A stretch of DNA of 41,688 bases from a virus, in IMG/VR virus record IMGVR_UViG_3300042507_002956, positions 1 to 41,688 of that record. One strand, written 5' to 3'. The position numbers were made by a program, and so were the translations under genes. Below, in pieces: positions 9,744 to 39,909 of the stretch. Positions within the stretch are counted from its first letter, which is position 1, and every line of letters begins with the position of its first letter. A model generated the notes under the pieces. That model was not told where the DNA came from. It did not search any database and was given only the letters and a program-made list of their open reading frames with translations.

Positions 9744-12700
9744 ATGGCTGAAAAAAATTCACTCTGGAAAAACATTAGAAAAAAGGCTGAACAAAACAGA
9801 AGGACTGGTGCTAAACCTAAGAAGCCTACTGCAGAAATGCTTAGGCAAGAAAAAAAAATTAAAGCTAAGCAATACTTTAAAGGTGGTCCAACAGATCCTA
9901 CTGATGGTGATTTTAAAAAATCTTCTCAAGCTACAACTGATTTTTTTACACAATGGTATAAAGGCAGAGCAATGAATCCTAAATTTACAGATGTTGCTAA
10001 TAAAAGATTAGAATTATTAAATTCAAATATTTATCCTAAAACAGAAATATTACCTTATGATAAAATGTCTAAAGAAGGATTTTATGATCCTACTAATAAT
10101 ATTATTAAATACAGCGATAAAGATTTAAATGATAGATATTATAATGATAATATAAATTCATTAATAACTCATGAAACTGATCATTACTTAAGTAACAAGG
10201 CTCCTCAAGAGTTTATAAATGCAAATAGTATTATAGATAATAATGTAAAGCAAAATAAAAAATGGTTAGCTGGTGAAAATGATTTACATCAAGATGAAGA
10301 AATTAGAGCTAGGTTAAGTGTGTGGAGACAATTAAATAATATTGATCCTACTAAAGATTATTCATTAAAAGAATTAAGAAGTATAATTAACAAAAATCTT
10401 GATGATGAAAATTTAGACAATGATATTAAAGACTTATATGAATCAATAAAATTTGATGCAGAAAAGTTAAAATATTTTAATGATAGTTTTGTAAGTAATC
10501 CTCAAAGTACATCTTACAACCAATATGCAGCACAAGGTGGATACATGTATCCTGATGGTGGTGATATTCCACCAATTAGTATTAGAGATTATTTAAAAGT
10601 TTATAGAACAGCTTTAAAAAATAATGAAATATTAAGTAATAGAAAAGATTATAGTAAAGTAACAGATAGAGAAGAATATAATAAAAGAAAAGCTAACATT
10701 AAAAATTATTTAGATTATCTAGAAAATTCTAGATATGAAGCTATTAATACATATCAATTACCTGCTCACATTAATACACAAAAAGAATATAAAGATTTAA
10801 TAAATATTGATTATCCAACATATTTAAAAAATTATTCATTATCTGATTCTATAAAAAATAATTTTTCTGAAAATTTATCTAAAGAAGATTTTGAAAAACA
10901 GCTTAATGATATAAAAACTCACTATAACCAAAGCTATTGGGCAAAACCAGAAGATTATTATAAAGAAGATTCTCCTAATACATTTTACCAACGAGAATTA
11001 AACTGGATGAACATGAATCCAGAATTACCAATATCTTTTTATGATAAAAGAATAGTACCTCATGATTATGTTGAATATAAAAGTAATGTTGGAACAGATG
11101 TTTATGGTACATATTTATATGACCCTATACAAGTAAAAAAGGAAGCAATGTCAGCTTATCCTCAAGCTAAAGAAGGTGAATATAAAATATATCAAATTAG
11201 TGGTGGTGCAGGAACTACAGGCAATTCTTACGATTATCAAGTATGGTTACCTGGTCAAGGATGGAAATCTTACAATAAAAATGATTTTGATAAATTATAT
11301 AATGAAAATTTTTTAATTCAAAATGAAAACTCATTACCTTATGAGGGTAATGAACTTAATACAAATTATAAAGATCAAAAAGCTAAAGGTGGATATTTAT
11401 ATCCTGATGGTGGTAAAACTAAATCATTAGTACAACCTCCAGTATTATTAGATGATAATATTATATATCTAACAGATTATCCTCTTTTACCAGGATTAAA
11501 TAAAGATATTATAGATGCTAGATATAATCAATATGATAAATTGAGAAGAGAGTTTATACATGATGAAGGAATGACTCCTGAAGAGTATTATCAAATGTAT
11601 CCTACAAAACAAGAATTTGAACGTAAAACATTTGATCCTTCAAATAGAGGTGTACAATTAGCTAATGGTGGTCTAACAGGTGATGATGAAGATGGTCGCA
11701 AAACTAAAGTATATACTGACATTAATAAATTTAGAGAGGCTGAAAAAGCTTACAATGATAGTTTAATGTTATCTACAAGATTTCCAATGCCTCCTAAAGG
11801 ATATGATATAACTCCATATGTATTTAATAAAAATGCAACAGAAGTTATAGGAAGAGATAGAAGTGGTAGAGAAATAGTAAGAAATGTAGAAAATAAAAGA
11901 AAAATACAACCAATAGGTAATACTTCACATAATGCTAGAAGACTAACTTCTTCTAATACATATAATGTTAGTACAGGAAAAAGTGGTGAAATAATATCAA
12001 CAAAAAGACCTATATATAAATCTCCAGAAGTAAAACCTATATACATACCACCATTAGAATATTTAAAACCTATAACATTTAAAGCTTTTGAAACAAATGA
12101 AGAACCTATAAAATTAAAACCTATTGAAATGCCATTTTTTCCATCAAAAGTGTTCCTTAGAGAAATGGGTGATCTTGATAGAAATAGACCAAGAGGAGAG
12201 AAAAAACTTCCAGAATTATATATGGATGATGGAAAAGGATGGAGACCTATTGATTTTAATGAATATAAAATGTATAAGGAACAATATCCTGGTGCTGATA
12301 AACCTGGAGGATGGATAAAAAATAATAAAGCTAATGGAGGTTATATGTATGCTAATGGAGGTGGACCAGGTGATGATGAAACTCCTAAAATTAGTTTAGA
12401 AGATTATTTAAGATTATATGAGGAAGCTTTAAAAACAGAAATGTTAATGAAGTCAAATCCAGATTATGTAAAAGCTCGTTCATATACTAATACTAAAGAC
12501 TTTTTAGATGAATTAAAAGACTCAAAAATAAGATATAATAATATGATCAATGATCCAGAATATATATCAAAAAAGTGGTCATATGTAGATAAGTTAAAAA
12601 AGGGAAAACCTGAAGGAATGTCAGATGAAGATTGGGAATCAGAAAAATCCTTCTTAGAAAAATTAGTTCAATCAAAATATAATGATGAAACTAATAAATC

Positions 12701-15700
12701 TTATTATAATGAATTAGATTCTTATAGATTTTATCAAAGAGATTTATTAAATAATACCATAAATCCTGATTTACCTCCAATATATTATGATAGAAGAGTT
12801 ACACCACATAATATAAATTGGTATAATTCTACTAAAACATATGAACATGATAGTTATCCTGGAGAAGTTGTTAATGATGCTTATAATTATTATACTTATG
12901 ATCCAATAAAATTAGAAGAAGAAATTGGTATTAAATATCCTACAAGCAAAAATCCAATTGATGAGATTAAGAAAAAATATAATTTAATCACTGATAATAA
13001 TAATGTTACAAATACAAATACAACAACAACTAATACTCCTCCACCTGCTGTAAGTAAACCAACAGGTATTTATTCAAATTCTTCTAGTGGTAATTATTAT
13101 TATATACATACTGATGATAATAACAAAACAATGAGAATAGATTCTTCAGAATTACCTTCTTATTTTGATAAATATGATTTACAATATAGATCATCAGATA
13201 CAGGATCAAGTAATAATGTACCAACAAATAGTTTATTAATGTGGGATCCAAATTTACCTGTTGGAGAATATATTGATCCAAATAAACCAGATTATTATCA
13301 TTATTATAATACACCAAATGCTCAATTTCATCCTAAAATAAATACAGAAGGATTTAAGTTTATTAAAGCAACTGGTGGTTATATGTATGATGGTGGTGGT
13401 AATTTTACAAGTGATGGTGATAAAGATGGTAAAAAAGGTTTGTTTAACAAAAATGTTGCAAAAATTGGAGATGATAAAAATACATTAATAGCATCTTCTT
13501 TAAGTGAAGTAGATGTTAGTGAAGAAAAACCTGATTGGTTAAAAGATAAAGAAAGTAAACAACCAGATTATATTGATTGGTATGAATCATTTAATCCTAA
13601 AAAATGGGGATTAAATGATTATAGTAATTATAGTTCTTTTAGTTCTGCTTTTAGAAATGCTAGAGAAGCTGGTGAAAATGAATTTGTTTATAATACAAAT
13701 AGATATAATACAAAATTAAAATCAGATAATGAACAAAACATAATACCTACTGAAGATTCTTATGAAAGACAACCTGAAATAATTAATCTTGTTGATAAAA
13801 GAAAATATAATCCTGTAACTAAAGGACCTATTAATCCTAATAGAGATTTAGTTAGTGGTCAATTTGAAGATCCTATTATTAATGAAATTATTATTAGTTC
13901 ATATAAACGTGATGTAGATCCTTATACAGCATTAGCCATTGGTTTACAAGAAAGTAGATGGGGTCAAACAGATTCTAATATAGGACATGTTTCATCTGAT
14001 AGTGAAGATTATGCACCTGGTGTTGATGAAATGGTTTCATTTATAAAAGAAAAAGAAAAATATGCTAAAAAACTAGGTTATAAAGATAAAAAACATTTTA
14101 TTCAAGCTTATAATGGTTTAGGTAATGTATATCCTGAAACAGAACAGGATTATCATGGTTTTAAAATGAAATCCATTTATGGCGTACCTGTTCCTAAAGA
14201 AGGAATAAATTTAGCTGAAAATCCTTTATATGGTGAAAAAATTATTAATCTTGAAGATTCTGTTTTAAAACAAAATCCTGAAATTGTTAAAAGAGTAGAA
14301 TATTATAAACCAAAAGCAACTGGCGGTTATACTAATCCATACATGTATTATGCAGGTGGACCAATGTACTATGGTGATGGTGGTAAAGTATGGAAGCATA
14401 TAGGTGCAGGAGCTTATGCATTAGGTGAAGGTTTATTAGATACTCTTACTATGGGTGCTACTGACCAATTAACAGATAAAGGTTATTATGCTTTACAAAA
14501 ATTAGGTAATAAAAATTTAGATTTAAGTGATCCTAAAGTACAGAAGTATATTAAAACTCAAGATCAAATTAAAGGTTATGGTAATGCAGCAGCAGCAATA
14601 ACAACAGGTATTTTTACAGGTAATGTAAAAGGTGCTACTACTCAAACTGCTAAAGGACTTAATACTGCTTTTCAAGCATCAGATTGGGCTACTGATGATT
14701 TTAAAAAATGGTCTAATATAGCTAACACTGCTATAGGTATGGGTGTAGGATTATCTGGAAAATCATTAAGCAGTGGAAACATTGATTCAGAATTAGGAAA
14801 AGCAGCATCTGAATTTGGTGCTAAAGCAAGTAAATATGCACCATATGCCAATCAAGCTATGGGAATGTTTGGTGGTAGTAATAACAATCAAACTCTTTTA
14901 CAACAAGTACAAGAAAGAGAAGAGTATTTAAACTCTCCTGAATACTTAGCTATGAAGGAACAACAAAACCAAGCTTATGTAAATCAAGGACTATCATTTG
15001 CTAGTCAAGGTGGTAATATAAATAATAATTTAGTAAATTTGCAAACAGACTCTATGAAAAATAGATACAACGATTACAGAAAAAAATATAAAACAGGTGG
15101 TAAACTTGAAGGTTATGGTATTAAGAAAGTATCTTCTCGTGTAGGTTTACATAAAAACCATCCTAATAATGGTATGCAATTAGGACCTGATGCTTTAGTT
15201 GAAGGTGAAGAACTTATTAGATATGCTGAAGGAGGAATGATGGGATTACAAGGTCCAGAATATATTTATCCTGCTCATGCAAATGGTGAAAAAAATATTA
15301 AAATGCCACAACTAGATAGTAATTATAAAATAATTACTGATAAATATGGTATGCCTAGATTTACTAATAAATCACCTGCTCAATGGTTAGAAGAAAAATT
15401 AAATAGAGGTAGTGAATTTAGAACTGAAGTTGATAACATAGGTAAACAATCTGGTGATCAAGCAATGCTTCATGCTGAAGGTGGTAGAGAAATATCAGTA
15501 TCAGTTAATCAATTAAAAGAACAACTTGCTCAAGAGGATGCTATGAGAATAGCTCAAGAAGATGCAGTAGCTGCTTATGGTGGATACATGCCTAAAAATA
15601 AAAATCTTAATATGCCTAATTCTTATGCTAAAGGTGGTGGTATTCATATTAAAGAATCTAAAAAAGGTACATTTACTGCTGCAGCTAAAAAGCATGGAAT

Positions 15701-17303
15701 GGGTGTTCAAGAATTTGCAAGAAAAGTATTAGCTAATAAAGGTAAATATTCATCAGCAATGGTTAAGAAAGCTAACTTTGCTAGAAATGCTGCTAAGTGG
15801 AAACATGCTGAAGGTGGACCATTAGAAGAAGAATATGAAATAAAACCAACAAATAATTTAGAACGCTATAAACAACTTTTAGAGGCATATGATAAATATC
15901 GTAATTATGATTTTAAAGGAGAAGATGTTAGTGGAAATTTAGGAGATCAACTTATGCGTATAATTCGTAATGAATATCCTGAATTATATAATTATAATGC
16001 TCAAAATAATGAAGATTTAGCAAGATATATTTATAACAATGAACCTGCACTTTTTCCTAGTTTAGTAAGTAACGAATTTAGTAATACGTTTCCTACAAGA
16101 GAAGAATTCTTTAAACAAAGAGATTTAACTGCAGAATTAGATGATCAAGAAGCCTTTCAAAAAGGCATGTATTATAGAAAAGGTCGATTAGATTATAATA
16201 CTTTAGAATCAAAAAATAAAGGAACTTATGAAGATCGTGGAACTTATTATCAAAGTCCTGTAACAGGAGATATAATATATAAATCAAATTATGTAAAACC
16301 TTATGAATTTGGTCAAGGTGGTCCAATGGTATCTAATGTTCCACAACCTTTTAGTGGACCTTCTGCACAGAACAGAGGTGGTATGATGATACAGTATGCA
16401 ATGGGTGGCATGATGCAACAATCTGGTCAAGAAGACCAAATGATGCAAATGATGCAACAAGTTCAAGAAATGTTAATGCAAGGTGCTAATCCTCAAGAGC
16501 TTTTAAAACAACTTATGAAATCAGGATTACCACAAGATCAAGCACAACAACTTGTTCAAGCTGCAATGCAAGACTTACAATCACAACAAACACAAATGGC
16601 TATGGGTGGTAAAATGTATGGTGTAGGTACACCTCCTGAAGGTATTCAAAAAGGTGAAGCTTGGTATGATGAACCTGGTTATTCTAAATTTGCTAGATAT
16701 AGTCAAGCTTTACCTGGAGTTGCTGCTACTGTTACTGGAATGCAAAATAAAAGTAGAAAACTTACTCCTACATTTGCAAAAGATATAACAGTTAATTATG
16801 AACCAGAAAGAATAGCTGATAGAGAAGAGTCTAGAAGAAAATTTGATGTTTATAAAAACATGTTAAAAAATGTTGCAAATAGTTCAGGAATGTTTGGAGA
16901 TAATGCTAGACTAGGATTTTTAAATTATAATAAAGATTTAGCAAATAGAATATCTCAAAGTATTATGAGAGAAAAAAATACAAAGGCTCAATTAGAACAA
17001 CAAACTAATTTAGCTAATACACAAATTGCTAATACATTTAAAGAAAAGAATGAAGAAATATTCCAGAATGCACAAACTCAAGCATTACTTGGTGCTCAAG
17101 ATACAACTTCTAAATTAGCAGGTGTAGCAACTGATGAAAGAAAACAGTATTTACAAGAATGGATTGCTAAGAATAGATTAAAAACAAGAAACATAGTAAC
17201 AGGACCTACAGGGCAAGATTATTTTTATAATCCTGCTACTAAGAAATATACTGATATGAATACTGGAGAAACATATGATATATTACCAACATTAAAAGAA
17301 TAA
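9744..17303 (+). CDS. giant modular internal virion protein: zincin, lytic transglycosylase and glycine-motif array
   Basis: This 2519-residue protein appears to be built from modules. After a basic start (SLWKNIRKKAEQNRR), residues 60-200 contain a zincin-type metalloprotease site, H143-E-T-D-H147, with a likely third ligand in DEEIRARL (E185/E186). Residues 270-1210 hold two related blocks separated by an unrelated one. Residues about 1390-1500 look like a lytic transglycosylase: ALAIGLQESRWG with E1403 as probable catalytic acid, followed by Y-N-G-L-G. Hydrophobic Gly/Ala-rich segments at about 1555-1670 could contact membrane. Residues about 1964-2024 carry a conserved phage-virion module (IHIKESKKGTFTAAAKKHG ... 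KKANFARNAAKWK). A Met/Gln-rich stretch lies at about 2220-2290. Short GG-containing motifs punctuate the chain. It is probably a capsid cargo protein ejected with the DNA; the zincin and transglycosylase calls are by motif only. Confidence 0.65.
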   Translation: MAEKNSLWKNIRKKAEQNRRTGAKPKKPTAEMLRQEKKIKAKQYFKGGPTDPTDGDFKKSSQATTDFFTQWYKGRAMNPKFTDVANKRLELLNSNIYPKTEILPYDKMSKEGFYDPTNNIIKYSDKDLNDRYYNDNINSLITHETDHYLSNKAPQEFINANSIIDNNVKQNKKWLAGENDLHQDEEIRARLSVWRQLNNIDPTKDYSLKELRSIINKNLDDENLDNDIKDLYESIKFDAEKLKYFNDSFVSNPQSTSYNQYAAQGGYMYPDGGDIPPISIRDYLKVYRTALKNNEILSNRKDYSKVTDREEYNKRKANIKNYLDYLENSRYEAINTYQLPAHINTQKEYKDLINIDYPTYLKNYSLSDSIKNNFSENLSKEDFEKQLNDIKTHYNQSYWAKPEDYYKEDSPNTFYQRELNWMNMNPELPISFYDKRIVPHDYVEYKSNVGTDVYGTYLYDPIQVKKEAMSAYPQAKEGEYKIYQISGGAGTTGNSYDYQVWLPGQGWKSYNKNDFDKLYNENFLIQNENSLPYEGNELNTNYKDQKAKGGYLYPDGGKTKSLVQPPVLLDDNIIYLTDYPLLPGLNKDIIDARYNQYDKLRREFIHDEGMTPEEYYQMYPTKQEFERKTFDPSNRGVQLANGGLTGDDEDGRKTKVYTDINKFREAEKAYNDSLMLSTRFPMPPKGYDITPYVFNKNATEVIGRDRSGREIVRNVENKRKIQPIGNTSHNARRLTSSNTYNVSTGKSGEIISTKRPIYKSPEVKPIYIPPLEYLKPITFKAFETNEEPIKLKPIEMPFFPSKVFLREMGDLDRNRPRGEKKLPELYMDDGKGWRPIDFNEYKMYKEQYPGADKPGGWIKNNKANGGYMYANGGGPGDDETPKISLEDYLRLYEEALKTEMLMKSNPDYVKARSYTNTKDFLDELKDSKIRYNNMINDPEYISKKWSYVDKLKKGKPEGMSDEDWESEKSFLEKLVQSKYNDETNKSYYNELDSYRFYQRDLLNNTINPDLPPIYYDRRVTPHNINWYNSTKTYEHDSYPGEVVNDAYNYYTYDPIKLEEEIGIKYPTSKNPIDEIKKKYNLITDNNNVTNTNTTTTNTPPPAVSKPTGIYSNSSSGNYYYIHTDDNNKTMRIDSSELPSYFDKYDLQYRSSDTGSSNNVPTNSLLMWDPNLPVGEYIDPNKPDYYHYYNTPNAQFHPKINTEGFKFIKATGGYMYDGGGNFTSDGDKDGKKGLFNKNVAKIGDDKNTLIASSLSEVDVSEEKPDWLKDKESKQPDYIDWYESFNPKKWGLNDYSNYSSFSSAFRNAREAGENEFVYNTNRYNTKLKSDNEQNIIPTEDSYERQPEIINLVDKRKYNPVTKGPINPNRDLVSGQFEDPIINEIIISSYKRDVDPYTALAIGLQESRWGQTDSNIGHVSSDSEDYAPGVDEMVSFIKEKEKYAKKLGYKDKKHFIQAYNGLGNVYPETEQDYHGFKMKSIYGVPVPKEGINLAENPLYGEKIINLEDSVLKQNPEIVKRVEYYKPKATGGYTNPYMYYAGGPMYYGDGGKVWKHIGAGAYALGEGLLDTLTMGATDQLTDKGYYALQKLGNKNLDLSDPKVQKYIKTQDQIKGYGNAAAAITTGIFTGNVKGATTQTAKGLNTAFQASDWATDDFKKWSNIANTAIGMGVGLSGKSLSSGNIDSELGKAASEFGAKASKYAPYANQAMGMFGGSNNNQTLLQQVQEREEYLNSPEYLAMKEQQNQAYVNQGLSFASQGGNINNNLVNLQTDSMKNRYNDYRKKYKTGGKLEGYGIKKVSSRVGLHKNHPNNGMQLGPDALVEGEELIRYAEGGMMGLQGPEYIYPAHANGEKNIKMPQLDSNYKIITDKYGMPRFTNKSPAQWLEEKLNRGSEFRTEVDNIGKQSGDQAMLHAEGGREISVSVNQLKEQLAQEDAMRIAQEDAVAAYGGYMPKNKNLNMPNSYAKGGGIHIKESKKGTFTAAAKKHGMGVQEFARKVLANKGKYSSAMVKKANFARNAAKWKHAEGGPLEEEYEIKPTNNLERYKQLLEAYDKYRNYDFKGEDVSGNLGDQLMRIIRNEYPELYNYNAQNNEDLARYIYNNEPALFPSLVSNEFSNTFPTREEFFKQRDLTAELDDQEAFQKGMYYRKGRLDYNTLESKNKGTYEDRGTYYQSPVTGDIIYKSNYVKPYEFGQGGPMVSNVPQPFSGPSAQNRGGMMIQYAMGGMMQQSGQEDQMMQMMQQVQEMLMQGANPQELLKQLMKSGLPQDQAQQLVQAAMQDLQSQQTQMAMGGKMYGVGTPPEGIQKGEAWYDEPGYSKFARYSQALPGVAATVTGMQNKSRKLTPTFAKDITVNYEPERIADREESRRKFDVYKNMLKNVANSSGMFGDNARLGFLNYNKDLANRISQSIMREKNTKAQLEQQTNLANTQIANTFKEKNEEIFQNAQTQALLGAQDTTSKLAGVATDERKQYLQEWIAKNRLKTRNIVTGPTGQDYFYNPATKKYTDMNTGETYDILPTLKE
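10564..11387 (+). repeat. internal duplicated protein module, copy 1
   Basis: This covers residues about 274-548 of the 2519-residue protein. The block starts ISIRDYLKVYRTALKNN and contains FYQRELNWMNMNPELP, a Y-D-K-R-I-V-P-H segment and YLYDPIQVKKEAM. The same order of motifs occurs again about 600 residues later, bounded on both sides by the GGYMY-type motif. Confidence 0.7.
12360..13373 (+). repeat. internal duplicated protein module, copy 2
   Basis: This covers residues about 873-1210 of the same protein. It begins ISLEDYLRLYEEALKTE and has FYQRDLLNNTINPDLP, YYDRRVTPHN and YTYDPIKLEEEIG in the same order as copy 1. The alignment is obvious at protein level but the DNA has diverged, so the duplication is old. 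Copy 2 is longer because of an Asn/Thr-rich insertion (about residues 1085-1115). Confidence 0.7.
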
Positions 17304-17306
17304 AAT

Positions 17307-19664
17307 ATGAATTTATTTAAATATACACCATCACCTTATATATCAACTCAAGTTGATTTACCTTTAGATTTTATTTATAAGCAACTTGAAACTCAACAAA
17401 AAGAGTTTGATGCTGAAACTGCTTTAGTTAATAAGACTACAGAAAACTTATTAAATCTTGATTTTGGTTTACTTACAGAAGATGCACAAAAAAGAGTTAT
17501 GCAAAACTATTTACCTAGAATTGAAAAAATAAGAGATGATTTATTTAATACAGGTAATGTAGCAATGGCTGTACCAGCTTTATCTAAATTTACAACAGAT
17601 CTTGCAGGTGATCCTGAAGTTAAAAATATGTTAAAAGATGCTAAATTAACTGAAACATATAGACAAGCTTTACAACAAGGATTATATACAGATAAAGATC
17701 TTCCTTTTATATTTGGTGAAAATGGTAAAATAAGACCCCAACTTGGTCCAGGTGAAACAGTACAAGCTTCGTGGTATGCTCCTTTGACTTATGTAGATCC
17801 TGTAAAAAAATTAGGAGATGAAGCTAGAGTAATGGTAGAAGAATGGTGGAGTAGTCTTCCAGCAAATCAAAAAGTTGATAAATTTGGTAACATTATAACA
17901 ACTGAATCACAAATAAAAGAAAAAAAGGCTGAATGGATAGAAGAATATTTAATGGGTAGACGTTTAGCATGGCAAAGTGATCCTACAAGTCAAGCAGCTA
18001 TTTATAGAATGACAGGTTATAAACCTCAACTTTTTGATGAAGATTTTTATAAAAAAAATATAGTAGATCCATTAAAAGAAGCACTATCATATGTAAGAAG
18101 AACTGATCAAACATCTATAACAAAAAATCAAATACCATCACCAATTGATCCAAAACCAACACCAGATCCAGATAAAACTAAAGTACAAATAACAGTACAT
18201 CCAAATACAACAAATGTATCAACACAAAATTCTGGTATTCCTGCTTGGAATACTGCACAATATCCTGAAGGTATAACATCATTGTTTGAATTTGAATCAG
18301 ATTTAGAAAAAAACAATGAAGATCTTGGTTTAGCATATGATGCAGTTTGGAATTTATCAGGTGGAGAAATAGATGAAGATAAAGGAATTCCTGCAGCAAG
18401 TGATTGGATAAATGAAAACTATATAAATGAAAATGGATTTTGGAAAGTAAAACCTGGTTCTTCAGCACCTCCTGTAAATAAATCTGTATCAGATGCTCTT
18501 AACAATTTTACAAATGCTAGATATTCACTTAGAAATAGACAAAGTTTATTTGAAGAACTAAAAGAAGCTACAGATGTAAAAAGTTATAATCCAAACATTA
18601 TTATTGAAGCAAAAAAGAAAGTATTAGATAAAATTGAAGGTACATATACTTCTTATTTACAACTTACTGGTCAAGATGATCTTCTTAAACAATATGAATC
18701 TTTATCTGTAGATAAAAAATTAGAAAAAGTTTCATTACTTCCCGCAAATAATAAACGTATAAATGAAGAAATGACTTTAGCATTAAAAGGTACTCCTGAA
18801 GGAAAAATATATCAAGCATTTGAAAACTATAAGAATAGAATAAGTCAAATGACTTTAATGGGTTTAAAAGATGATGATAAAGTAAATAGTATGGAAGGTC
18901 AGTTAATAAATAATGTATTAGGTGGTCATATATCAGCAAGAAGTCTACTTACTGGAGAAAAATTAGATAAAGGTGATTTAGATGAAACTTTTACAGAATA
19001 TATACCATATAAAGAAGGTGATCCTAGCAAAGGAGTTGACTATAGTCAAGTACAAACTAGTATTGGTTTACATCCTAAATATGGTGTTGTAGGTGTAATG
19101 TCAATGAATGGTAAATCATTTACAATAGATTTAAAAGATGCTAACATTGATCAAATATTTACAGATGAAAATCCTCATTATAAACAGCAAATACAAGTTT
19201 TCCAACAAGTAGCTGATTCATTTAAGAGAAGTGGAACAAATGAAGGTAGTTTTAAAATTGGTAATACACAATTTGTTTTTGAAGTAGAATCTGAAAACAT
19301 AGGTGGTGATAATCCTCAATTTTATTATTCTGAAAAATTTGATGGAACTAATACACAATCTCATGAAAATCTTGGTACAATATTTACACGTGCTTATGAA
19401 ATTGCAGATAATAATAACAAAGCATTTGATATTCTTTTACAAGTTAAAAAAGAAGAGTTATTACAACAGTATAATGATGAGTTTAATAGGTTAGGTCTTT
19501 ATGATACAGATGGTGCAACTAAATTGAAAAAGAAATATGAACAAAAACTTTTAGATTTAGAAGAACAACTAAAAACAGAGTTTAGTGCACCTAAAGTTGT
19601 AGGAGGAAGTTCGTCGGGAAAAGCGACGCCTCAACCAGGGGGTCCACTGGGGTTGGGGCGGTAG
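17307..19664 (+). CDS. cargo protein, zero-frame product; N-terminal part of a probable -1 frameshift fusion
   Basis: The zero-frame product is 785 residues, starting MNLFKYTPSPYIS three bases after the previous stop. The first 250 residues are mostly helical and soluble. A Pro-rich linker (SPIDPKPTPDPDK) lies at about 275-290, and the C-terminal region (about 715-765) is a Glu/Lys/Leu-rich coiled coil. At the end the frame runs through a Gly/Ser linker (VVGGSSSGK) into a GC-rich stretch coding ATPQPGGPLGLGR and stops at TAG 19662-19664. At codons 771-772 (GGA AAA) there is a -1 slippery heptamer followed by a strong hairpin. Slippage there would make a 956-residue protein with a lytic transglycosylase domain. 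I do not know the family of the N-terminal part; position suggests an internal virion protein. Confidence 0.7.
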   Translation: MNLFKYTPSPYISTQVDLPLDFIYKQLETQQKEFDAETALVNKTTENLLNLDFGLLTEDAQKRVMQNYLPRIEKIRDDLFNTGNVAMAVPALSKFTTDLAGDPEVKNMLKDAKLTETYRQALQQGLYTDKDLPFIFGENGKIRPQLGPGETVQASWYAPLTYVDPVKKLGDEARVMVEEWWSSLPANQKVDKFGNIITTESQIKEKKAEWIEEYLMGRRLAWQSDPTSQAAIYRMTGYKPQLFDEDFYKKNIVDPLKEALSYVRRTDQTSITKNQIPSPIDPKPTPDPDKTKVQITVHPNTTNVSTQNSGIPAWNTAQYPEGITSLFEFESDLEKNNEDLGLAYDAVWNLSGGEIDEDKGIPAASDWINENYINENGFWKVKPGSSAPPVNKSVSDALNNFTNARYSLRNRQSLFEELKEATDVKSYNPNIIIEAKKKVLDKIEGTYTSYLQLTGQDDLLKQYESLSVDKKLEKVSLLPANNKRINEEMTLALKGTPEGKIYQAFENYKNRISQMTLMGLKDDDKVNSMEGQLINNVLGGHISARSLLTGEKLDKGDLDETFTEYIPYKEGDPSKGVDYSQVQTSIGLHPKYGVVGVMSMNGKSFTIDLKDANIDQIFTDENPHYKQQIQVFQQVADSFKRSGTNEGSFKIGNTQFVFEVESENIGGDNPQFYYSEKFDGTNTQSHENLGTIFTRAYEIADNNNKAFDILLQVKKEELLQQYNDEFNRLGLYDTDGATKLKKKYEQKLLDLEEQLKTEFSAPKVVGGSSSGKATPQPGGPLGLGR
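19601..19606 (+). promoter_or_regulatory. internal Shine-Dalgarno-like element upstream of the slippery site
   Basis: AGGAGG lies nine bases before the slippery heptamer. Bacterial -1 frameshift sites such as dnaX use such an element to stimulate slippage. The gene starts in this window generally lack one. AGGAGG also occurs by chance elsewhere in the window, so its weight comes from the spacing. Confidence 0.65.
19612..19628 (+). other. small hairpin overlapping the slippery site
   Basis: CGTCG at 19612-19616 can pair with CGACG at 19624-19628, placing most of the slippery bases in the loop. The pairing shares two bases with the downstream stem, so the two structures would be alternatives or slightly trimmed. 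A translating ribosome would melt it. Its function is unclear. Confidence 0.4.
19616..19622 (+). promoter_or_regulatory. -1 ribosomal frameshift slippery heptamer G_GGA_AAA
   Basis: The heptamer GGGAAAA is phased with the zero frame as G_GGA_AAA, the X_XXY_YYZ pattern. After a -1 slip both tRNAs re-pair (GGG and AAA), and the next codon, AGC at 19622, is in the frame of the downstream transglycosylase. That frame then stays open to 20176. Confidence 0.8.
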
Positions 19665-20176
19665 CAAACTTTAATAATGCAATAGGACCACAAGAAAGTG
19701 GAAAAGATGTTTACAGAGCAAAGAACCCTCAAAAGGGTTCTACTGCTACTGGTAAGTATCAACATATTTGGAGTACACATGGAGTACCTCAAAAAGGACA
19801 AAAAATTTCTGAAATAGAAAGAATAACTGGTGTTACTACTAGAGAAGATTATTTAAATAATCCTGATGCTCAAGAAAAATATCAAGAACATTTATCTCAA
19901 GCATACCTAGATAAAGTACCTATGTTAAGAAGTAAGTATAATATACCTGATGCTATTAGAGATGAAACTTTAATGGCAATTCAACATTTTGCAGGACTTG
20001 GTGGAGCACAAGTTTACTTAAAAGAACTAATGACTTCTGGAAGTTATGATAAAGCTCAAGAGGTATATGATAATTGGCTTAGAGATAAAAATGATGGTAA
20101 GCTTTTTATAAATGATACTATATTTGAATATTTAACTAAGTTTGATAATAGTTTAAAAAAAATATTAAAAAAATAA
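19622..20176 (+). CDS. lytic transglycosylase domain reached by -1 frameshift (no own start)
   Basis: In the -1 frame 184 codons run from 19622 to a TAA at 20174-20176. The product begins with a Ser/Gly/Thr linker and continues as a lysozyme-like lytic transglycosylase: AIGPQESGKDVYRAKNP with the probable catalytic Glu encoded at 19694-19696 (residue 797 of the fusion). GSTATGKYQHIW, the usual G-x-ATG-x-Y-Q motif, follows, and then an alpha-helical C-terminal half (TLMAIQHFAGLGG...). There is no ATG, GTG or TTG in this frame between the slippery site and ATG 19922. That ATG lies after the catalytic motifs, so an independent start would give a non-catalytic fragment. The domain is therefore best explained as the C-terminus of the upstream cargo protein, made when ribosomes slip. 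It should cut glycan strands during DNA entry. Confidence 0.75.
   Translation, partial: SDASTRGSTGVGAVANFNNAIGPQESGKDVYRAKNPQKGSTATGKYQHIWSTHGVPQKGQKISEIERITGVTTREDYLNNPDAQEKYQEHLSQAYLDKVPMLRSKYNIPDAIRDETLMAIQHFAGLGGAQVYLKELMTSGSYDKAQEVYDNWLRDKNDGKLFINDTIFEYLTKFDNSLKKILKK
19627..19660 (+). other. frameshift-stimulating stem-loop
   Basis: Bases 19627-19636 pair with 19651-19660 to make a 10-base-pair stem (nine Watson-Crick pairs and one G-U), starting four bases after the slippery heptamer. An alternative inner pairing, CCAG 19635-19638 with CTGG 19647-19650, gives 12 pairs with a GG bulge. The 19612-19660 stretch is about two-thirds G+C in a visibly AT-rich genome. No U-run follows, so it is not an intrinsic terminator. 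Confidence 0.75.
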
Positions 20177-20259: not shown

Positions 20260-23200
20260 ATGGATGAAATAGAAAAAATGTTTCAAGAAGGTAAGATAGA
20301 TGCTGCTACTTACCAAAAAATAAAACAAAGGTATAATCAACAATTAATAAATGAAGAGTATAGAGCTAATGTAGGAGCTTTACAAGAAGCTGAAGCATAT
20401 ATTCAAAGTCAATCTCAATCAGGTTTAGGTTCAGTAAGAATTGGTGCAGATGCTAATAGAAATGTTTATGTTGATCCTAGTGAAATGGAATCTTACCTCT
20501 CAAGAGGTATTATGCCATCATATGGTGTAGATTATGAAAATCTTAGAGCTGAAAGACAAACATGGCAAGATCAACTTGCTAATGGTGCTGTAAAGTTTGT
20601 AGGTAAAACTGCTACTGGTGTTGTGGGTGGGTTAGCAATGCTACCTACTATTGCTGTTGTAGGTTTAGGACAACTTACAGATGCGTTAACTCCAATGGAT
20701 AATTTTCACTTTAAAGATATTTATGATAATGATTTTCAAAGAATGATGGATTTTGCAAATGAATCTATGGATTCTGCATTACCTAATTATGTAAGTAATG
20801 CTGAAAGAGAAGCTAGTGTTTGGAATTCAATGGGTACAATGAACTTCTGGGCTAATGATTTTCTAGGAGGAGCTTCTTTTGTTGCATCAGCATTATTAAC
20901 TGAATACTTATCAGCAGGTATGGCTAGTGGTTTAGTTGTAACTAGAGCAGGTAAATATTTAAAAGCAGCAAGTACAGCAGATAAAATGGAGAGTATAATT
21001 ACTCAAGCAAATAGATTTTCTGGAGGTGTTTTACCTCCAGGAGTTCAGGCAAATAGAGCTGCAAGACTTGCAAGACAAATGGTAACAGGTGCTGGTTATG
21101 AAGCTGGTGTTGAAGCTAGACATTTTGTAGACCAAGCTAAAGAACAATATATTGCAGAATATATGGAAGCAAGTGGTGGTATAGAACCTACTGAAGAAGA
21201 ACTTGCTGCTGCAATGAATGAAATTTATTCAGTAGGTAATGGTGTATTTGGAATTAATTTAGGATTAGTTTCATTGGGTAACATGGTTACATTACCTAAA
21301 ACATTTGCTCCAGGATTAGCTTCTAAGTTTGGTTTTAAAGCAGGTAAGGTTACAGATGCTGATTGGGTAGTTAAACCATCAGAACTTACAGATACTCAAT
21401 TAACTAGAATGGCTAAAAAGACTGGTAAGTCTATAGAAGAACTTAAAGCAACAGATTATGTAAATAAGTGGGATGGTTTATCTAAAGTAGAAAGATTAGC
21501 AAGAGCAGGTAAAGGTAGATTTGCACCAATGGTAACAGAAGGTTTCTTTGAAGAAGGTCTTCAAGGTGTTACTCAAAATGCTGCTTTAGATTATGTAAGT
21601 AATAGATTAAATCCTGATAATATAAATGAAGTTGCTGATTTAAGTGAATCTATTATTAGAGGTTTTGAAGAACAGTATGATGTTAGTAAGGCTGAAGGAT
21701 GGAAGGAAATTATTATAGGTTCTATTCTTGGTGGTATTGGTGCTCCTAATATTGGTAGAGCTAAAGGACAACCTATTTGGCAAGGTGGAGTATTTGGTTA
21801 TCAATCTCCTGGTAAAAGAGAAAACATTCAAAGCTTAGTTAATGATGCTATTAAGTATGGTAAAGCAACTACTGAAAATATAAAGCATGCTGCTACTGTT
21901 GCAGGTGTTACTAAAAGACAAGATGATGCTATTGCACAAGGAGACATGTTTGAAGCTAAGAATCAAGAATATGCTTCAATGTATTCCTATGTAAGTACAA
22001 TGGTTAAACTTGGAAGATTTGATGAAATTGATTCTGAAGTAAGTAAGATGGTTCAGGATATGACACCTGATGAATTTGCAGAAAACTTTGGTTATACTAA
22101 TAAAACAGAAGAAGAATTAAGTAAAAGAAAATCAGAAGTACTTAGTACATTTAAACAAAGAGCTAATGATATTAGAGAAGCTAGAGAGTTAGCTGATAAA
22201 GTTTCTATTTATGAAGATGATGAAGATTTAAAAGATGGTCTTGGTTATGTATTTGGTATTGCTAAAAACATTGACCAAAGAGAAGAACAAGTTTTTAAAT
22301 CTCTTCAAGAAAAATTAGGATTACTTTATGATAAATCAGTAATTAAACAATTTGCTGAGTTTGTTGAGTTTGAAAAAACTGCTAATGGTAAACTAGTACA
22401 AGAGCATACTAAAAAAATAAATGAACTTGAAAAGTTAACATCTGAAGAATTAAAAGCAAATAAAAATCGTACCTCTAAACAAATTATGGATAGAGGTAAG
22501 GAGATAGATAAACTTCAAAAAGAGATTTCAGATTTAGAAGATAAACTTGAAAAAGAGTTTTCTAAGTTTATTCAAACATATGAAGCAACAGGTAAAGGAG
22601 AACCTATTTCATATAATAGAGATAAGTCTAAGTTTTTAACAGCATTAAATAATTTTAAGATGCTTCAAGAAGAAGCTGAAAAGAATGTTGGTGAAAACTT
22701 TTATAATAGACCTGATATTGAACCTTTACTTAAGGACTTAATGAAGCTTGCTACTTATAGACAACAGCAGATTACATTAGCTAATTATTACATGACTAAG
22801 AAAGGTCAGACTAAGTTAGCTAATGAAATTGATAATCTTAAAAAGATGGCAGAAGAAGAACTTGTTAGTGATGAGTTAAATCGTTCAGCAAATGAGTTTG
22901 GTTTAACAGGTAATGTAGATACTAGAATGCAAGATATTGCTGCAAGAGCTTATAAGAAAAAACAATTAGGTATAAATCCAAATGAAACTTATGATCCATC
23001 AGAGTCACTTGAAACTATTAATAAGATATTAGAAAATTTACCCGAAGGTCCACAAAAAGATGCTTTTCTAAAAGCAATGCAAATTGTTAATCAAAAGTTA
23101 AATTCTAAAGATGTAGATGATATAGAACCTTATTTAAATAATGTTTATACTGAATTTTTTAATTCTGAATTAGGTGAAACACCAGAAGGTAAAGTAATAT

Positions 23201-26200
23201 TAGATAATATTAGAAATGCATTTGATGAAATTATAAGTTATTTAAAAGCACCTAAAACAACAGCTGCCATTTCATCTATTAATAGATTTTTTAGAGTTTA
23301 TATTCCAGAAGAAGTAGATGCCTATTTAGCAAATACATTTACACACCCTTCTGACTTTACAGTAAATCTTGAAGAAATTGATCCTGAAGATCCCTATGTT
23401 AAAAAACAAGAGGAAAATAATAGAATTATTTACTTAAAAGAATCTGATGATAATAAAAAACCTGAAGATAGAAAAAAAATACTTACTCCTTATGTAGCAA
23501 TGCAATCTTTAATTAAGCATAATGGTAAATACTATGCTATTAAATTGATGCACAATAATAATTTTGTTGGTTACATATTAGATCCTAATAGATATAAGTT
23601 TAAAAATCCTAACACAAATGCTTATGAAGATTTTAATCCAAAATCATTAGCACACTTAAGATTAATAAACCCAGCATTTGTATCAAAAGATAAAATTACA
23701 ACTGAAGGTCTTGAGTTTATTGAAGCATATACTCAAGGTATGAAGATGTTTAAATTCTTTTTAGATAAGATTGATGAAGGTAAATCTAAAGTTCAAACTA
23801 GAGATTTATTAGAAAATGGATTTTTACTTTTTGATAGTAAGTTTAATAAATATGATAATGGTGTTCCTGGTGAATTAATAAAAGAACTTAGAGATAAACC
23901 AGAACTTTACAACTTAATTCCTATGGATGAACCTAGAGGAATTGAAGTTAGAGAAGGTGAATTTGTAAAAGCTCCTTTCATTCAAGTTAAAAGTGGTAAT
24001 GCTATAGATTATTTTTACTATGATAAAACAGATGATTCTGTTAAGAGAGTTATTTACCAAGGAGGTATAGATAAACTAAATACTTTATTAAAAGTAAATT
24101 CTAAAAATTCACAATTTGGTATTAGTAGTTCTAGAAACTTTATTAAAATAGTTAAACCTAGTGATAGTGGATTTAGTCCAATAAGTGTAAGAATACCAAC
24201 TATAAACTTAGAAGATGAAAACTCTTCTTTTATAAATGATTTTAAAACTTACCTTGATCAATATATTGGAAAAAAGAAAGGTGAGTTTAAATACAAGTCT
24301 AATTTCTTTAATACTAATATTGTAGGATACAGTGAAGAAGATGAATCTGTTAATCTTAAAATATATTTAGATCATTTAAATTCAAAAGGTACTCAGTTTT
24401 TAAAACTACAGATTAGTCATAATGGTAAGTTTGTAGATATTATCTTAGATGAGGTTAATGAAGTTTTAGATATTAAAAGTGGTAAAGAGCTTATTGATTT
24501 AATTAATACTAAAATTAAAAAACAAGCAGGTACTATATCAAAAGCAGGTGTTGAGTTACCAAAATCATTTGTTGCTACAGGATTTAACTATGCAACAAAA
24601 ACTGCTGATATAAAAACTATTTTAGAAACAGGTATTCCAACCTTGTTATCAAAAAGAGGTATTGTTTATAAACCTAAAGAAATTCAATTTAAAGATAAAC
24701 CTGATGAAACTACAAAAGAATCTACAGGTAGTTTTTCAAAAGATGACTTTTTATCAGCAGATGAAGTTGAAGAAGCTGGTGGATTTAATTGGGAAGAAGA
24801 ACCTGCTAGTGAAGAACAACCTCAAGGAACACCATTAGGAAATGTAGGAACAGCTGCTAGTGATGCTTTAAAAGCTAAGGGTGTAAAGTTTGGATTTACT
24901 GAAGAACAAGTAGATTCAATGTCTGTTGAAGAAAGAGATATTATTAGAACATCTCTTGATAAGAGTGATGTTGCGATAAAAGATCTTTTTGATAAGTATA
25001 ATAAGAAAGATGAAGATACTACTGAAGATGATGATTTTATTCCTGCTTATAAAATTGAAGAAAACATTTCAGACTATGAAGAAAGTTTAGAAAGTAGACA
25101 AGAAAAACTTGAAGGAATATTACCAAGTTGGATACCTATTAGAGATCTTGAACAAATAAGAAGTAGATTTAAAAATAAAGGTTTTACATATGGTGTATTT
25201 ATTGACAGTGTAATATACCTATCTAGGAATGCACCTAAAGGTGTAGAGTACCATGAAGCATTCCATGCTGTATTTAGAACTTTACTTAGTGATGTTCAAA
25301 TATCAAAAGTATTACAAGAAGCTGTTTCAAGATATGGAAAACCTACTAATCAACAGATTGAAGAACTTAGAAGTAAGTCTGCTGAATATTCTAATTTAAA
25401 CTTAGATACTTTAGTTAAACTATGGTATGAAGAAAAGTTAGCAGATGAGTTTCAAAACTACATGCTTAAACCAGTAGAACCAAAATCATTCATTCAAAAA
25501 ATGTTTGAATTAATTAAAAAGTTTATTGGATGGGCTTCTAATAATAGAGGTTATATTGATGGTTTATTTAAAGATATTAAAAGAGGTGTTTACAAAAATG
25601 CATCACAAGTTAAAAATCAATACTATCAAAAACCATTAGCTGTATTTAAAACTCTTGAGTTTGAAGAAGAGTATGAAGGTGCTAAAAGAACTAGAACATT
25701 AGATTCAAGAACAACTTCAAATATTACAAATAAAATTTTAAAGAAAGCTTTTGACTTAAGTAAAATTACTGAAGTTACTGATCTTGATATAAAAAATATA
25801 ATTGAAGATTTAAAAAACAATTATTATACTGAAGAAAACTTTGAAGAGTTATTTAAACAATCAACTCCTTCAAAAGTTAATTCAGCTAAAAAGCAATTAA
25901 GTCAAGTTAGGAATGCTTTATCTAATCCTAAAAATATAACAGAGATAGTTAAAGAAGTACAAAACTTGTTATCAATGTATAAGATTGTAGATTATACTTT
26001 AGAAGCAGATGAAGATCAAGATACTCAAGAACTTCCTACAGAATTCTTTGCAAAAGAAGTTTCTACTATTGGTGGTATAGGAAGTCTTTCTAAAGAAATG
26101 CGTAAGTATTTACAGTTTATACCTTCACCAGTAGATGAATTTGATTTAGGTGTAACAATAGATCCATCTTCTCAATTTGTATCATATGCTGACTCTTATG

Positions 26201-29200
26201 AGCTTTATAATGGTATTGCTAGAATATTAGCTAATAGAAAACCAAGTGATATAATTAAAGCATTATATTCTCAATCTAAAACTAATGAACAATTAAAATA
26301 TTTTACTGTACAAATATTTTCAGATATAGCAAAAGACTTAGGACTTACAAATTATAGTCCTAAAGAAATATCTCAACTAGGTTTACTTACTTTAGAAAAA
26401 TCAACAACATTCCAAATGTTTGTTGCCAACTTTAGAAAAAATAAAATTGATTACATAAGTATAACTCCTGATGTTGAAACTAATAAGTTTAAATTATTTA
26501 GATCTAATATAAATGATGTTAAAGACATTCAAGTTAATACTTGGGGTAATGCTAACATGAGTAATCCAGTAAGCAGTGAAACTCAAAGAGATCTATTAAA
26601 TAAACTAAGAAATTCTTTTAAAAACATAAGAGAAGGAGAAGTTGGTATAAAGAATCTAAAACAATTTGTTGATACTGTTGAAGAAATTAAAGCTAATCTA
26701 AATGCTTTACATATTGATGTAAGTGATTTATATATAAGATTATCATTGTTTAATACTATTCCTAATAAGAATGATTTAGCTGTATTAGATGATGATGGTA
26801 CTTTTGAAAACCTTTTAGAAACATTACAAGTGTATCCTGATGTTTCATATTTAAGTGATGAAATGTTTTCAGGAATGTTAAATGCAACAACTAAGGGTGG
26901 ATCTATATATGAAAAAGTTGAAGGTAAAGATTCTGGTGCTATTAGTAAACTAAAAAATATTGCTGAAGCAAATTCTTATTTTGATTTTGCAGTAATACCT
27001 ACAACATTTAAAAACATTGAAGGTAAAACAATATACTCTTATATTCAACCTAACTATATTACAGATATTGTAAATAGTTTAAAAGAAAATCCTGATGCAA
27101 TTATTGATGCATTAAATGATCCTAACCCTGAAACAGGTTATTTAACATTTAGAGACTTCTTAATTAATAATAATTTAGAGTCAAATGATTTCCTTCAAAG
27201 AAAGTTTTATAATTCATTAAGATATAATCCTCAATTAAGTTCTGTTGATGCTAAAACATTCTTAGCAGGAGTAAATGCATTTATACTTGATGGTTCAAGA
27301 GTAGTAAGACTTGATGACAACTATAAAGAAATAACTTATTTAAGTAATGATGAAGGTAAAAGCTTTCAATCTTTAGATCCTAGAGGTAAGATACTTACAT
27401 ACTTTATGTTGTATAGTACAAAAGGTGGACAAAACTCTATGACAAAAAATGTTGATGGAGTTGAGTTTGTACCTTATATACCTTTTCAAAATGAAGGTAA
27501 GAATACACAGTGGGCAGTTAGCATGCCTAAAACTAAAGATGCTTTTTCAGAAGGTAGAATATCACAAGAAGCTTATAGTAAAATATTTAAGATATTTCAA
27601 CTTGAACATAGTAACCTACTATCATTTTTTGAAAGTTTAAAAAATGATGAACAATTACCAACTGTAAAAGGAGTTACTGAGTTTAAAAATGAAGAATTAA
27701 AAAATGATGTTGTTAATGCTTTAAAGAATGATGACTTCAATGCTTTGTTAGAAATATATAAAACAAAGTATAATGAATTACCAAGAGCAATGAAGTTTAG
27801 TAATATTGAAGTTTTATTTAAAACTGATAATATTGATTACTTAATTAAATCAGCATTTGATGGTGTTGAACTTGATTTAAATGAAGATACTAAATCATCT
27901 ATTAATAAACTTGTAGACAATATAACTAACGAAACATTAGAATTATTATCATCTGACAATGTTAAACTAATTAATAAAGTTGAAGAAGGTAAATATTCAA
28001 ATGTATTATTACCAAGAGAATTTTTATTTGATAATGGTGATGTTAATGTTGGAACACTTAAAAACTTTTTAATTAATGATTATATAAACTCTGTATCATT
28101 TATTAATATGTTAGTTGGAGATATGGCATTTAATTTTAAAGATGCTATTGATTTTCCAAAAAGAATGGCTGGTCTTAATGCTTCTGGTCCATCATTAGGT
28201 TTAACTAAAACTAATGTTACTATTATAGAAGATGTTGAAGGTATACATGTTGATACTGAAACAGGTAAAATAGTTTCTAAAGAAAGAACAGATGGTCAAA
28301 GTTATTCTACACAAACTTGGTATGAAAGAAAATACTTAAGAACATTTAAAAAGTGGAATCCTGAGATTGAAAGATTATATAAAAAGATGAGAAAGTGTCA
28401 AAAACTTTCTTGGGATGAAAAAGAGTTTCTAGAAAATTATGGGGCACTAGCTAATTCTAGAAAGATTGCAATGTTTAACTATGCAGTATATGGTAAAACA
28501 TCTATTAATCCTATTGTAAGAAATGAAGTTTCTTTTGTTAAGAAAGAAAACATTAAAGCAGTTAATGAACTTGTAGAAAGACTTTATCAAACAGATGATT
28601 TAGTTGAATATAAAAAGATTCTTGTTAAACTTCACAAGTATTATGAAGCTTATCCACATACTAAAAAGATGCATGATCTTCTTAATAAGATGGAAAATAG
28701 TGATACTGATATAGCTTTAAGTGAAAGTGCTGTAAAAACTGTTGTTTATAATTCACAAAACCCAGACAATGTTAATGCTTTTGAAAACATTGTAATGGGA
28801 GATACATATATTAGAGAGCAGGTTGTAACTGATGGTATGAAAACTAAAGTTGTAGATCCTACTCAGTTACTACAATTAATAGATAGTGAACAAAAACCTG
28901 GAACTAAAGTAAGTGTACTAGGTAAAGAATATGATATTGAAACTATTGTTAATGTATTTAAAAGAACTAAAGAATATAGAGTAAAACAAAAGTATGAAGA
29001 GTTAAAGCAATCTTATGTTGAAAATAATAAACCTAGATATAAAGCTTTATTAAAGTCATTTAGAGAAAGCTTATTAAACATGGGTACTGATCCTATTATG
29101 TTAGAATTACTATCAGCTAGTGAAAACCTTGATAGTTCTAAATATAATTGGAACATGAATAAAACTATTAGTACAGTTGAAAAGATGCTCTATTCATATT

Positions 29201-38229: not shown

Positions 38230-38258
38230 AGAGGGGCTTAAAACACCCCTCTTTTTTT
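38230..38258 (+). terminator. intrinsic terminator of the structural-gene block
   Basis: AGAGGGG at 38230-38236 pairs with CCCCTCT at 38246-38252 around a nine-base loop, and seven T residues follow (38252-38258). It starts 8 bases after the stop of the last forward gene and reaches the stop of the convergent reverse gene. The reverse strand has only a weak T-run, so it should act mainly on forward transcripts. Confidence 0.85.
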
Positions 38259-38475
38259 AGTCCAATGAAACACCATAGTTATTTAGTAAGTCAATGAGAT
38301 GCTCATTTAGCTTTGTAGCTAATTTGATTTCATGCTCATCTTCACTATACTTCCAATACCTTCTAAGTTCTTGTTTCATATCCCAAAGAACCATTTTATA
38401 ATCTGAAGCATGAACTGCATCAGTAAAATCTGATTGTTCTTCAGGTAAAGTAAATGTTATAACAGCTTGTGCCAT
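38257..38475 (-). CDS. small conserved phage protein of unknown function
   Basis: This 72-residue acidic protein starts MAQAVITFTLPEEQSDF and has one long helix containing D-Y-K-M-V-L-W-D-M-KQELRRYWKY. I recall similar small proteins, with the F-T-L-P-E-E-x-x-x-F start and W-D-x-x-x-x-L-R core, in many unrelated phages next to nucleotide-metabolism or replication genes, always without known function. It is the last gene of the reverse block, two bases after the dUTPase stop, and converges on the terminator of the forward block. Confidence 0.65.
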   Translation of the reverse strand: MAQAVITFTLPEEQSDFTDAVHASDYKMVLWDMKQELRRYWKYSEDEHEIKLATKLNEHLIDLLNNYGVSLD

Positions 38476-38477
38476 AA

Positions 38478-38903
38478 TTAGTTAGTGCTTCCAAATCCAC
38501 CCTCACCTCTTTCAGTAGAAGATAATTCTTCAACTTCTTGAAAGTTAATCTGTGGATAAGGCATTATTATTAATTGTCCAATTCTATCACCAGGTTTATA
38601 GTATGAAGTATCAGGAATGTGTTTAAACCTAAGTTTAATCTCTCCTCTATACCCAGAGTCAATAACTCCTACAGAGTTAGTTAATATAAGACCTGAATTA
38701 CTTATAGAGCTTCTAGGAAATAAAAGTCCTACATGTCCTTCTGGAATTTCAATAGCTAATCCTGTACCATATTCCATATAACCAAACTCATCTCTATCAA
38801 CTTTAGCTATACTAATAGCTGTAAGATCCACAGCAGCATCCCCAGCCTTTGCATAAGCTGGAGTTACTGCTTTAGGATCAAGTTTTTTAATCTTGACTAC
38901 CAT
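38478..38903 (-). CDS. dut: dUTP diphosphatase (dUTPase)
   Basis: This 141-residue trimeric-type dUTPase hydrolyses dUTP to dUMP and pyrophosphate. It keeps uracil out of DNA and feeds thymidylate synthase. All five conserved motifs are present: AGDAAVDL (20-27), PRSSISNSG (63-71), GVIDSGYRGEIKL with D82 and Y85, GDRIGQLII, and the Gly-rich arm RGEGGFGST at the C-terminus. Length is normal for the family and the protein looks complete. Its start overlaps the stop of the upstream gene by one base, and it lies in the same reverse operon as ThyX, which uses its product dUMP. Confidence is high. Confidence 0.95.
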   Translation of the reverse strand: MVVKIKKLDPKAVTPAYAKAGDAAVDLTAISIAKVDRDEFGYMEYGTGLAIEIPEGHVGLLFPRSSISNSGLILTNSVGVIDSGYRGEIKLRFKHIPDTSYYKPGDRIGQLIIMPYPQINFQEVEELSSTERGEGGFGSTN

Positions 38904-39232
38904 TAGTTTACACCAAATAAATATTTAACCCAACCAGGAATACTGTCAAGTTTACTTTTTAAATTATTTACCTCATGTGTTAATCCTGTAACATTGAATT
39001 TAGCACTTCTAATGTCATTAGAAAGATCTAGAATCTTTTTATCAAGACCTCTTACAATGTTTTCAGCAGCTCTAACAGCATTTTCTAATGTAGTAATTTG
39101 TGAAGTTTTACTATCAATTTCTTTTTGATGTTCTTCAATACTTACAAACATTACTGGACTACCTGCTTCTGTAGTTACATCTACTTTCTGAGATAGTTTT
39201 TTTCTTGGTTTTCTTTTAACTTGATTTTCCAT
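38903..39232 (-). CDS. coiled-coil protein of unknown function
   Basis: This 109-residue protein has a basic N-terminus (KRKPRKKLSQK), a short beta-like stretch (SPVMFVSIEEHQ) and a helix with heptad-like leucines and isoleucines from about 40 to 95. It ends in a hydrophobic tail (WVKYLFGVN). No enzymatic motif is visible. The gene is sandwiched between dUTPase and ThyX: it overlaps the 3' end of thyX by 17 bases and the dut start by one. It may be a small accessory or oligomerising protein. I do not recognise a family. Confidence 0.6.
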   Translation of the reverse strand: MENQVKRKPRKKLSQKVDVTTEAGSPVMFVSIEEHQKEIDSKTSQITTLENAVRAAENIVRGLDKKILDLSNDIRSAKFNVTGLTHEVNNLKSKLDSIPGWVKYLFGVN

Positions 39233-39908: not shown

Positions 39909-39909
39909 A

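Follow-up and report, generated by a model that had tools for sequence, protein, structure and literature searches.

A conserved slippery site at the end of a cargo-type gene of crAss-like phages and a proposed -1 frameshift to exchangeable peptidoglycan hydrolase-like domains

The end of one gene in a virus record of 41,688 bases, a metagenome-derived contig (the whole of which is called here the window), raises the question of whether a cargo-type protein and a lysozyme/transglycosylase-like domain encoded behind it in the -1 frame are joined by programmed ribosomal frameshifting, and what such a fusion would be for. We consider it very probable that a programmed -1 frameshift yields mostly a 785-aa C2-type cargo protein and, in part, a 956-aa form with a transglycosylase-like end. 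This had been proposed in the original prediction, and the frameshift is supported by the conserved heptamer, the covarying stem, the start-less relatives and the clade-wide retention described below.

The cargo gene and its slip site

The window carries a muzzle protein gene, which marks the phage as crAss-like, and a ring protein (PF24228, E 5e-47). The order of the muzzle, 2519-aa, 785-aa and 4336-aa open reading frames (ORFs) matches that of phi-crAss001 gp44, gp45 (C1), gp46 (C2) and gp47; thus, the 785-aa ORF lies 3' of the muzzle gene, between C1 and the giant ORF, the position of C2. A profile built from nine frameshift-type cargo proteins matches one built from eleven proteins in the C2 position (probability 96.4, E 1.2e-9), which supports this assignment; the match covers the N-terminal 220 columns only. 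The single-sequence profile comparison with gp45/gp46 gave no informative result. Both gp45 and gp46 of phi-crAss001 are virion cargo, and a role in channel formation during ejection is expected for them (PMC10172136). Searches of the annotated phage collection returned no match for P0001, P0004 and P0006 and a single weak match for P0002; the species genomes searched gave no match, and the PDB sequence search nothing relevant. The features considered are as follows.

4846–9741, + strand: muzzle protein gene (PF25731, E 6.6e-144)
9744–17303, + strand: 2519-aa ORF in the C1 (gp45) position, upstream neighbour (synteny, weak local similarity to gp45)
17307–19664, + strand: C2-type cargo protein ORF, zero frame, 785 aa (synteny with the phi-crAss001 gp46 position, N-terminal profile match)
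19601–19606, + strand: AGGAGG, possible Shine-Dalgarno (SD)-like stimulator ending 9 nt 5' of the heptamer (the strongest anti-SD complementarity of the ORF; role proposed)
19616–19622, + strand: slippery heptamer G_GGA_AAA, in phase with the ORF from 17307 (G_GGA_AAR at the corresponding place in 15 phages)
19627–19636, + strand: downstream stem, 5' arm (fold and covariation); its core, CCTCAACC, starts 6 nt past the heptamer
19651–19660, + strand: downstream stem, 3' arm (fold and covariation)
19662–19664, + strand: zero-frame stop TAG, ending the 785-aa form (sequence)
19616–20176, + strand: -1 extension, 186 aa, predicted lysozyme/transglycosylase-like domain (relatives 46–58% identical; AF2 pLDDT 82.5)
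20260–33270, + strand: 4336-aa giant ORF, downstream neighbour and anchor for the search of relatives

The positions predicted for AGGAGG, the heptamer, the stem, the TAG and the -1 frame, together with the lengths of 785 and 956 residues, proved exact to the base. The -1 frame is open from 19595 to 20173, with its stop at 20174–20176, and slippage at the heptamer is predicted to give a fusion of 770 + 186 = 956 residues. It had also been claimed that this frame has no usable start before its catalytic part; the earliest ATG, GTG or TTG is indeed found at 19922, 102 codons on and 3' of the conserved GKYQ motif. Taken alone, GGGAAAA (5 occurrences in the window vs 6.0 expected) and AGGAGG (12 vs 7.7 expected) are at chance level. 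The phase and surroundings are distinctive. Within the 786 codons of the cargo ORF there is a single in-phase G_GGA_AAR, which is the slip site. The 10-bp stem (one G-U included) belongs to a stretch of 45 nt 3' of the heptamer that folds at -24.2 kcal/mol, beating all 754 other windows of the ORF (median -2.9), and the anti-SD complementarity upstream of the heptamer is the highest in the ORF. As anticipated for a genome poor in SD sequences, none of the 12 listed gene starts in the window has a recognisable one.

Two further observations concern the genome as a whole. The giant ORF contains DFDID, an RNA-polymerase-like DxDxD motif, at residue 3116 and may be a fused virion RNA polymerase, and a divergent minus-strand block at 38257–41679 carries thymidylate synthase and ribonucleotide reductase genes.

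Recurrence of the signal and exchange of the extension

Relatives were drawn from IMG/VR. A search with the -1 domain led to L001 (47% identity) and an alignment-based search to L003, L004 and L005; in all four, an ORF of about 720–775 aa with G_GGA_AAG in phase is followed by the domain in the -1 frame. Further crAss-like loci were gathered with the N-terminus of the giant ORF as an anchor, and all were scanned by one rule: the heptamer had to be in phase and to lie where the ORF overlaps an open -1 frame. The scan found the cargo-gene signal in the window, L001, L023, L024, L025, L026 (the same as L004), L027 (the same as L003), L028, L029, L122, L123, L125 (whose site is identical in L126 and L127), L133 and L134. 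A homology-free DNA pattern scan independently added L105, its other matches being mostly in unrelated contexts. In total, 15 phages (the window and 14 others, of which L029 and L125 are close kin) have the heptamer 24–54 nt from the end of the zero-frame ORF together with an open -1 frame. The site is an in-phase heptamer of the X_XXY_YYZ type within an overlap, and the signal is conserved across diverged sequences. About 50 other crAss-like loci, some of them near-duplicates, show no G_GGA_AAR overlap at the cargo gene, and no heptamer overlap was found in the scanned structural genes of Cellulophaga phage phi14:2, the cultured crAss-like control.

The rate of in-phase G_GGA_AAR is 1.6e-4 per codon in 145,216 codons of crAss-like ORFs, true sites included, which gives an expectation of about 0.003 for a tail of 20 codons. 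At all nine sites tested, G is the last base of the codon preceding GGA, compared with 6–9% of the codons of these ORFs; multiplying over nine G-ending codons gives 1e-10, which assumes independence and is indicative only. In the tree of the giant ORF, 14 of the 15 carriers and one non-carrier, L030, form one clade (support 100/99), while L001, whose giant ORF is not alignable, stands outside it. One gain and one loss suffice to account for the distribution within that clade. Since L030 has neither signal nor extension, the device is dispensable in that phage.

The extensions behind the slip site differ between the carriers. Type-1 transglycosylase-like domains are present in the window, L001, L026, L027 and L028 (46–58% identical), a second type in L023, L025 and L105, and a third, by motif, in L134. 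The extension of L122 is an M23 domain (PF01551, E 6e-29, 100.5 bits vs a cut-off of 28.7), those of L029 and L125 are M15/VanY-like (VanY E 6e-4; PHROG endolysin 5.5e-6), and so, by motif, are those of L123 and L133. The L024 extension is a domain without an assigned family; judged by eye, the same domain follows M23 in L122. The window, L023, L122 and L024 have giant-ORF neighbours 72–81% identical to that of the window, yet four different extensions. On this comparison, which goes further than the original prediction, the -1 domain is exchanged among close relatives, whose slip site is retained in front of transglycosylase-like types, M15-like or M23 domains. The identification of the extension as a transglycosylase in the original prediction consequently holds for the motifs of the window and some relatives, but not for the phages with M23 or M15-like domains.

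In the window itself, the name transglycosylase is a prediction drawn from motifs, from remote Pfam links by way of relatives, and from a lysozyme-like fold match below significance. The domain has no significant family match in Pfam, PHROGs or NCBIfam; its homologues L012, L014 and L015 give sub-threshold Transglycosylas/SLT matches. In the Foldseek search with the AF2 model, T4 lysozyme and T4-lysozyme fusions recur, none of them significant. The motif QES..GKYQ is conserved in type-1 relatives, with variation around the Glu. A motif of the G-[KLR]-YQ type comes after this Glu, which by analogy may be the catalytic residue. The extensions of L023, L024, L025, L027, L122 and L123 reach about 590–715 aa, far beyond one enzyme domain, and at least about 400 further -1 residues, partly common to these phages, stand behind the hydrolase.

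Several loci outside the cargo set are worth noticing. At L063:2550-5663, a cargo-position ORF of 1038 aa has an M15-like domain at its C-terminus with no change of frame, as an in-frame counterpart to the frameshift fusions. At L032:3070-3591, G_GGA_AAG immediately precedes the stop of an ORF that is not the cargo gene but lies upstream of it, and the -1 product of 174 aa, whose frame opens exactly at the heptamer, has M15-like motifs (HASGNAVD...HFHLEF); it may represent a separate adoption of this device and was kept apart from the cargo set. The G_GGA_AAA near the end of the L037 giant ORF was rejected as a false positive, its -1 extension being only 2 codons. Other heptamer types, in L040 and L062, lie in ordinary gene overlaps. 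The DNA pattern (heptamer, 6 nt, CCYCAR ... YTGGGG) also matched other phage genes whose -1 frame is open; of these, L092, L095 and L101 resemble tail-chaperone (G/GT) overlaps, and L073 resembles another structural gene.

Putative stimulatory elements and comparison with known frameshift signals

A downstream stem is present at 10 sites (window, L001, L023, L024, L025, L026, L027, L028, L105 and L122), and there is no strong stem in the 45 nt after the heptamer in L029, L123, L125, L133 and L134. Of the first 9 cargo sites, 7 have a downstream fold that is the best of its own ORF; that of L024 ranks 7 of 822, and that of L029 is unremarkable. In eight aligned stems, 96.9% of the cells are paired, with changes on both sides in 5/8 pairs, and the covariation score was reached by none of 500 shuffles; the arms were aligned by hand and picked by inspection, which favours pairing, and sliding the partners breaks it. 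Upstream anti-SD complementarity was called strong when no more than 1.4% of the positions within the ORF equalled it; 8 of the 15 sites (window, L001, L029, L122, L123, L125, L133 and L134) have such complementarity and the other 7 do not. A stimulator was taken to be a downstream structure at 5–9 nt or an upstream SD, and every site has a stem, anti-SD complementarity or, in three phages (window, L001 and L122), both. The spacing between GGAGG (AGGAGA in L122) and the heptamer is exactly 9 nt in the window, L001, L122, L123 and L133. Among the relatives, the heptamer is kept and the stem covaries, as the original prediction would have it, whereas AGGAGG is not universal.

The reading of the purine-rich element requires caution, because it coincides with Gly-Gly codons at 7 of the 8 sites (the exception is L122), and a flexible Gly-Gly linker is an alternative reason for its presence. 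Furthermore, Bacteroidia ribosomes are reported to be blind to SDs, with the anti-SD sequestered (PMC9976891). The zero-frame cargo tails are also alike (GK..PQ....PLGLGK/R; window 19617-19661). The stem sequences CCNCAR and YTGGGG encode PQ and LG, so this likeness of the tail peptides may be a by-product of the RNA stem.

The resemblance to the E. coli dnaX signal was also predicted. The same trio of SD-like element, heptamer and stem occurs in the window, L001 and L122, but it does not hold as a set for the family, in which the upstream element and the stem are each partly missing; the stimulators vary between sites (stem, SD-like element or both), and the dnaX-like trio is not the rule. 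The dnaX heptamer is A_AAA_AAG (PMC5009743), compared with G_GGA_AAR here. A closer counterpart for the heptamer is found in phage λ, in which gpG/gpGT uses G_GGA_AAG. The crAss-like site belongs to the same heptamer class, and in both systems the slip occurs near the end of the upstream gene, producing a long form besides the short one. Frameshift-extended phage proteins are well known, both gpG/gpGT and the capsids of T7, T3 and A2 (PMC5009743). The gpG/gpGT frameshift is conserved widely in long-tailed phages, and neither gpG nor gpGT is present in mature virions (PMC5009743); here, in contrast, the upstream product is of cargo type, the phages are short-tailed and the predicted extension is wall-cutting. 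In T7 gene 10 and T3/A2-type capsids, a -1 frameshift adds a C-terminal extension, variable between relatives, to a fraction of a virion protein (PMC5009743). However, those are capsid surface proteins with Ig-like, binding or uncharacterised domains, whereas in the present case predicted hydrolases extend an internal protein of the cargo type. The window lineage shares its gene order, and homology at the N-terminus, with phi-crAss001 gp45/gp46, which have no -1 extension and for which frameshifting is not mentioned (PMC10172136).

Proposed mechanism, rival explanations and significance

At the level of sequence, the signal, its conservation in 15 phages, the covariation of the stem, the start-less relatives and the exchange of domains are demonstrated, and the following mechanism is proposed. 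Most ribosomes would be expected to terminate at 19664, giving the 785-aa cargo protein. The downstream stem, and possibly also pairing of AGGAGG with 16S rRNA, would slow some of them, and the slowed ribosomes would slip, GGA_AAA being re-read as GGG_AAA, to produce the 956-aa form as a minority event. Both forms would then enter the virion, where the -1 domain, presumably an active peptidoglycan hydrolase, would leave together with the cargo and breach the wall as ejection proceeds. A comparable wall-opening role has been proposed for the transglycosylase domain of the T7 ejection protein gp16, which is encoded in-frame and therefore present on every copy. The likeness lies in a muralytic domain, here predicted, on an ejected internal protein; the difference is that here it depends on frameshifting and is exchangeable. 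The window has a separate endolysin-like gene (1244–1756), so end-of-infection lysis is unlikely to be the main role of the extension.

For ALTERNATIVES, an indel, TAG recoding, an internal start and transcriptional slippage were weighed as alternatives. That one in-frame fusion gene has been split, whether by an indel from sequencing or assembly or by a recent inactivating mutation, is conceivable for a metagenome-derived contig, but the overlap and heptamer recur in 15 contigs from different metagenomes with diverged flanking sequence; as the set refutes it, this explanation has a negligible chance of being right. A separate gene in an ordinary overlap, reached by re-initiation or an internal start past the cargo stop, is suggested by the -1 frame ATG just past the zero-frame stop of L001 and by GTG codons at most 13 codons from the heptamer in L023, L025, L105 and L122. 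However, the first start in the window comes only past the GKYQ motif, the -1 products of L029, L125 and L133 have no ATG, GTG or TTG at all, the L026 frame opens exactly at the heptamer, and the heptamer and covarying stem would be left unexplained, which makes a separate gene very improbable; an additional short form made from the ATG (L001) or GTG codons (some others) is possible. Transcriptional slippage and TAG reassignment are mechanisms known in bacteria or crAss-like phages, and either might produce the long form. Nevertheless, the A run here is just 3–4 bases, too short for usual slippage of RNA polymerase, and if TAG were read as Gln, the zero frame would hit further stops with no recognisable product; moreover, other ORFs of the window end in TAA and TGA, and those of relatives in TAA or TAG. 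The likelihood of this pair is vanishingly small. The three start-less -1 products, together with the L026 frame opening at the heptamer, mean that an indel, re-initiation and TAG recoding cannot explain the set.

The last debatable issue is the function of the extension. Even if the frameshift is real, the extension might be something other than a minor wall-cutting ejection enzyme and serve instead as a scaffold, in lysis or in modifying the host, or else the fusion might be the main product, as the six extensions of about 590–715 aa could suggest. We regard this as rather unlikely, because a peptidoglycan-hydrolase theme is common to extensions of unrelated folds, C2-family proteins occur in virions (phi-crAss001, PMC10172136) and the window encodes its own endolysin-like protein elsewhere. 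The programmed frameshift onto a hydrolase domain is thus preferred. Its widest formulation, in which the slip site is a conserved hinge for interchangeable peptidoglycan hydrolases placed on only some of the ejected cargo and, in a subset of phages, anti-SD pairing is used during elongation by the ribosomes of hosts in which SDs are ignored when translation starts, is put forward tentatively, with more doubt than confidence.

No description of crAss-like frameshifting, or of a frameshifted virion peptidoglycan hydrolase of this arrangement, was found in the open-access papers searched, in line with the original prediction, which knew of no such description in crAss-like phages. The finding would thus be a new, testable use of a known trick, the frameshift-extended protein, in uncultured crAss-like phages. 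It also has a practical side, as standard gene callers will split or lose frameshift fusion proteins. If these phages infect Bacteroidia, the SD-like elements at some sites raise a sharp question, given the reported sequestration of the Bacteroidia anti-SD (PMC9976891). Finally, peptidoglycan goes unmentioned in the structural account of phi-crAss001 (PMC10172136). To the question of how crassvirus cargo and DNA pass the wall, the lineage described here offers a testable answer: a predicted wall-cutting enzyme that a conserved frameshift would place on a fraction of the C2 cargo, its type swapped between close relatives.
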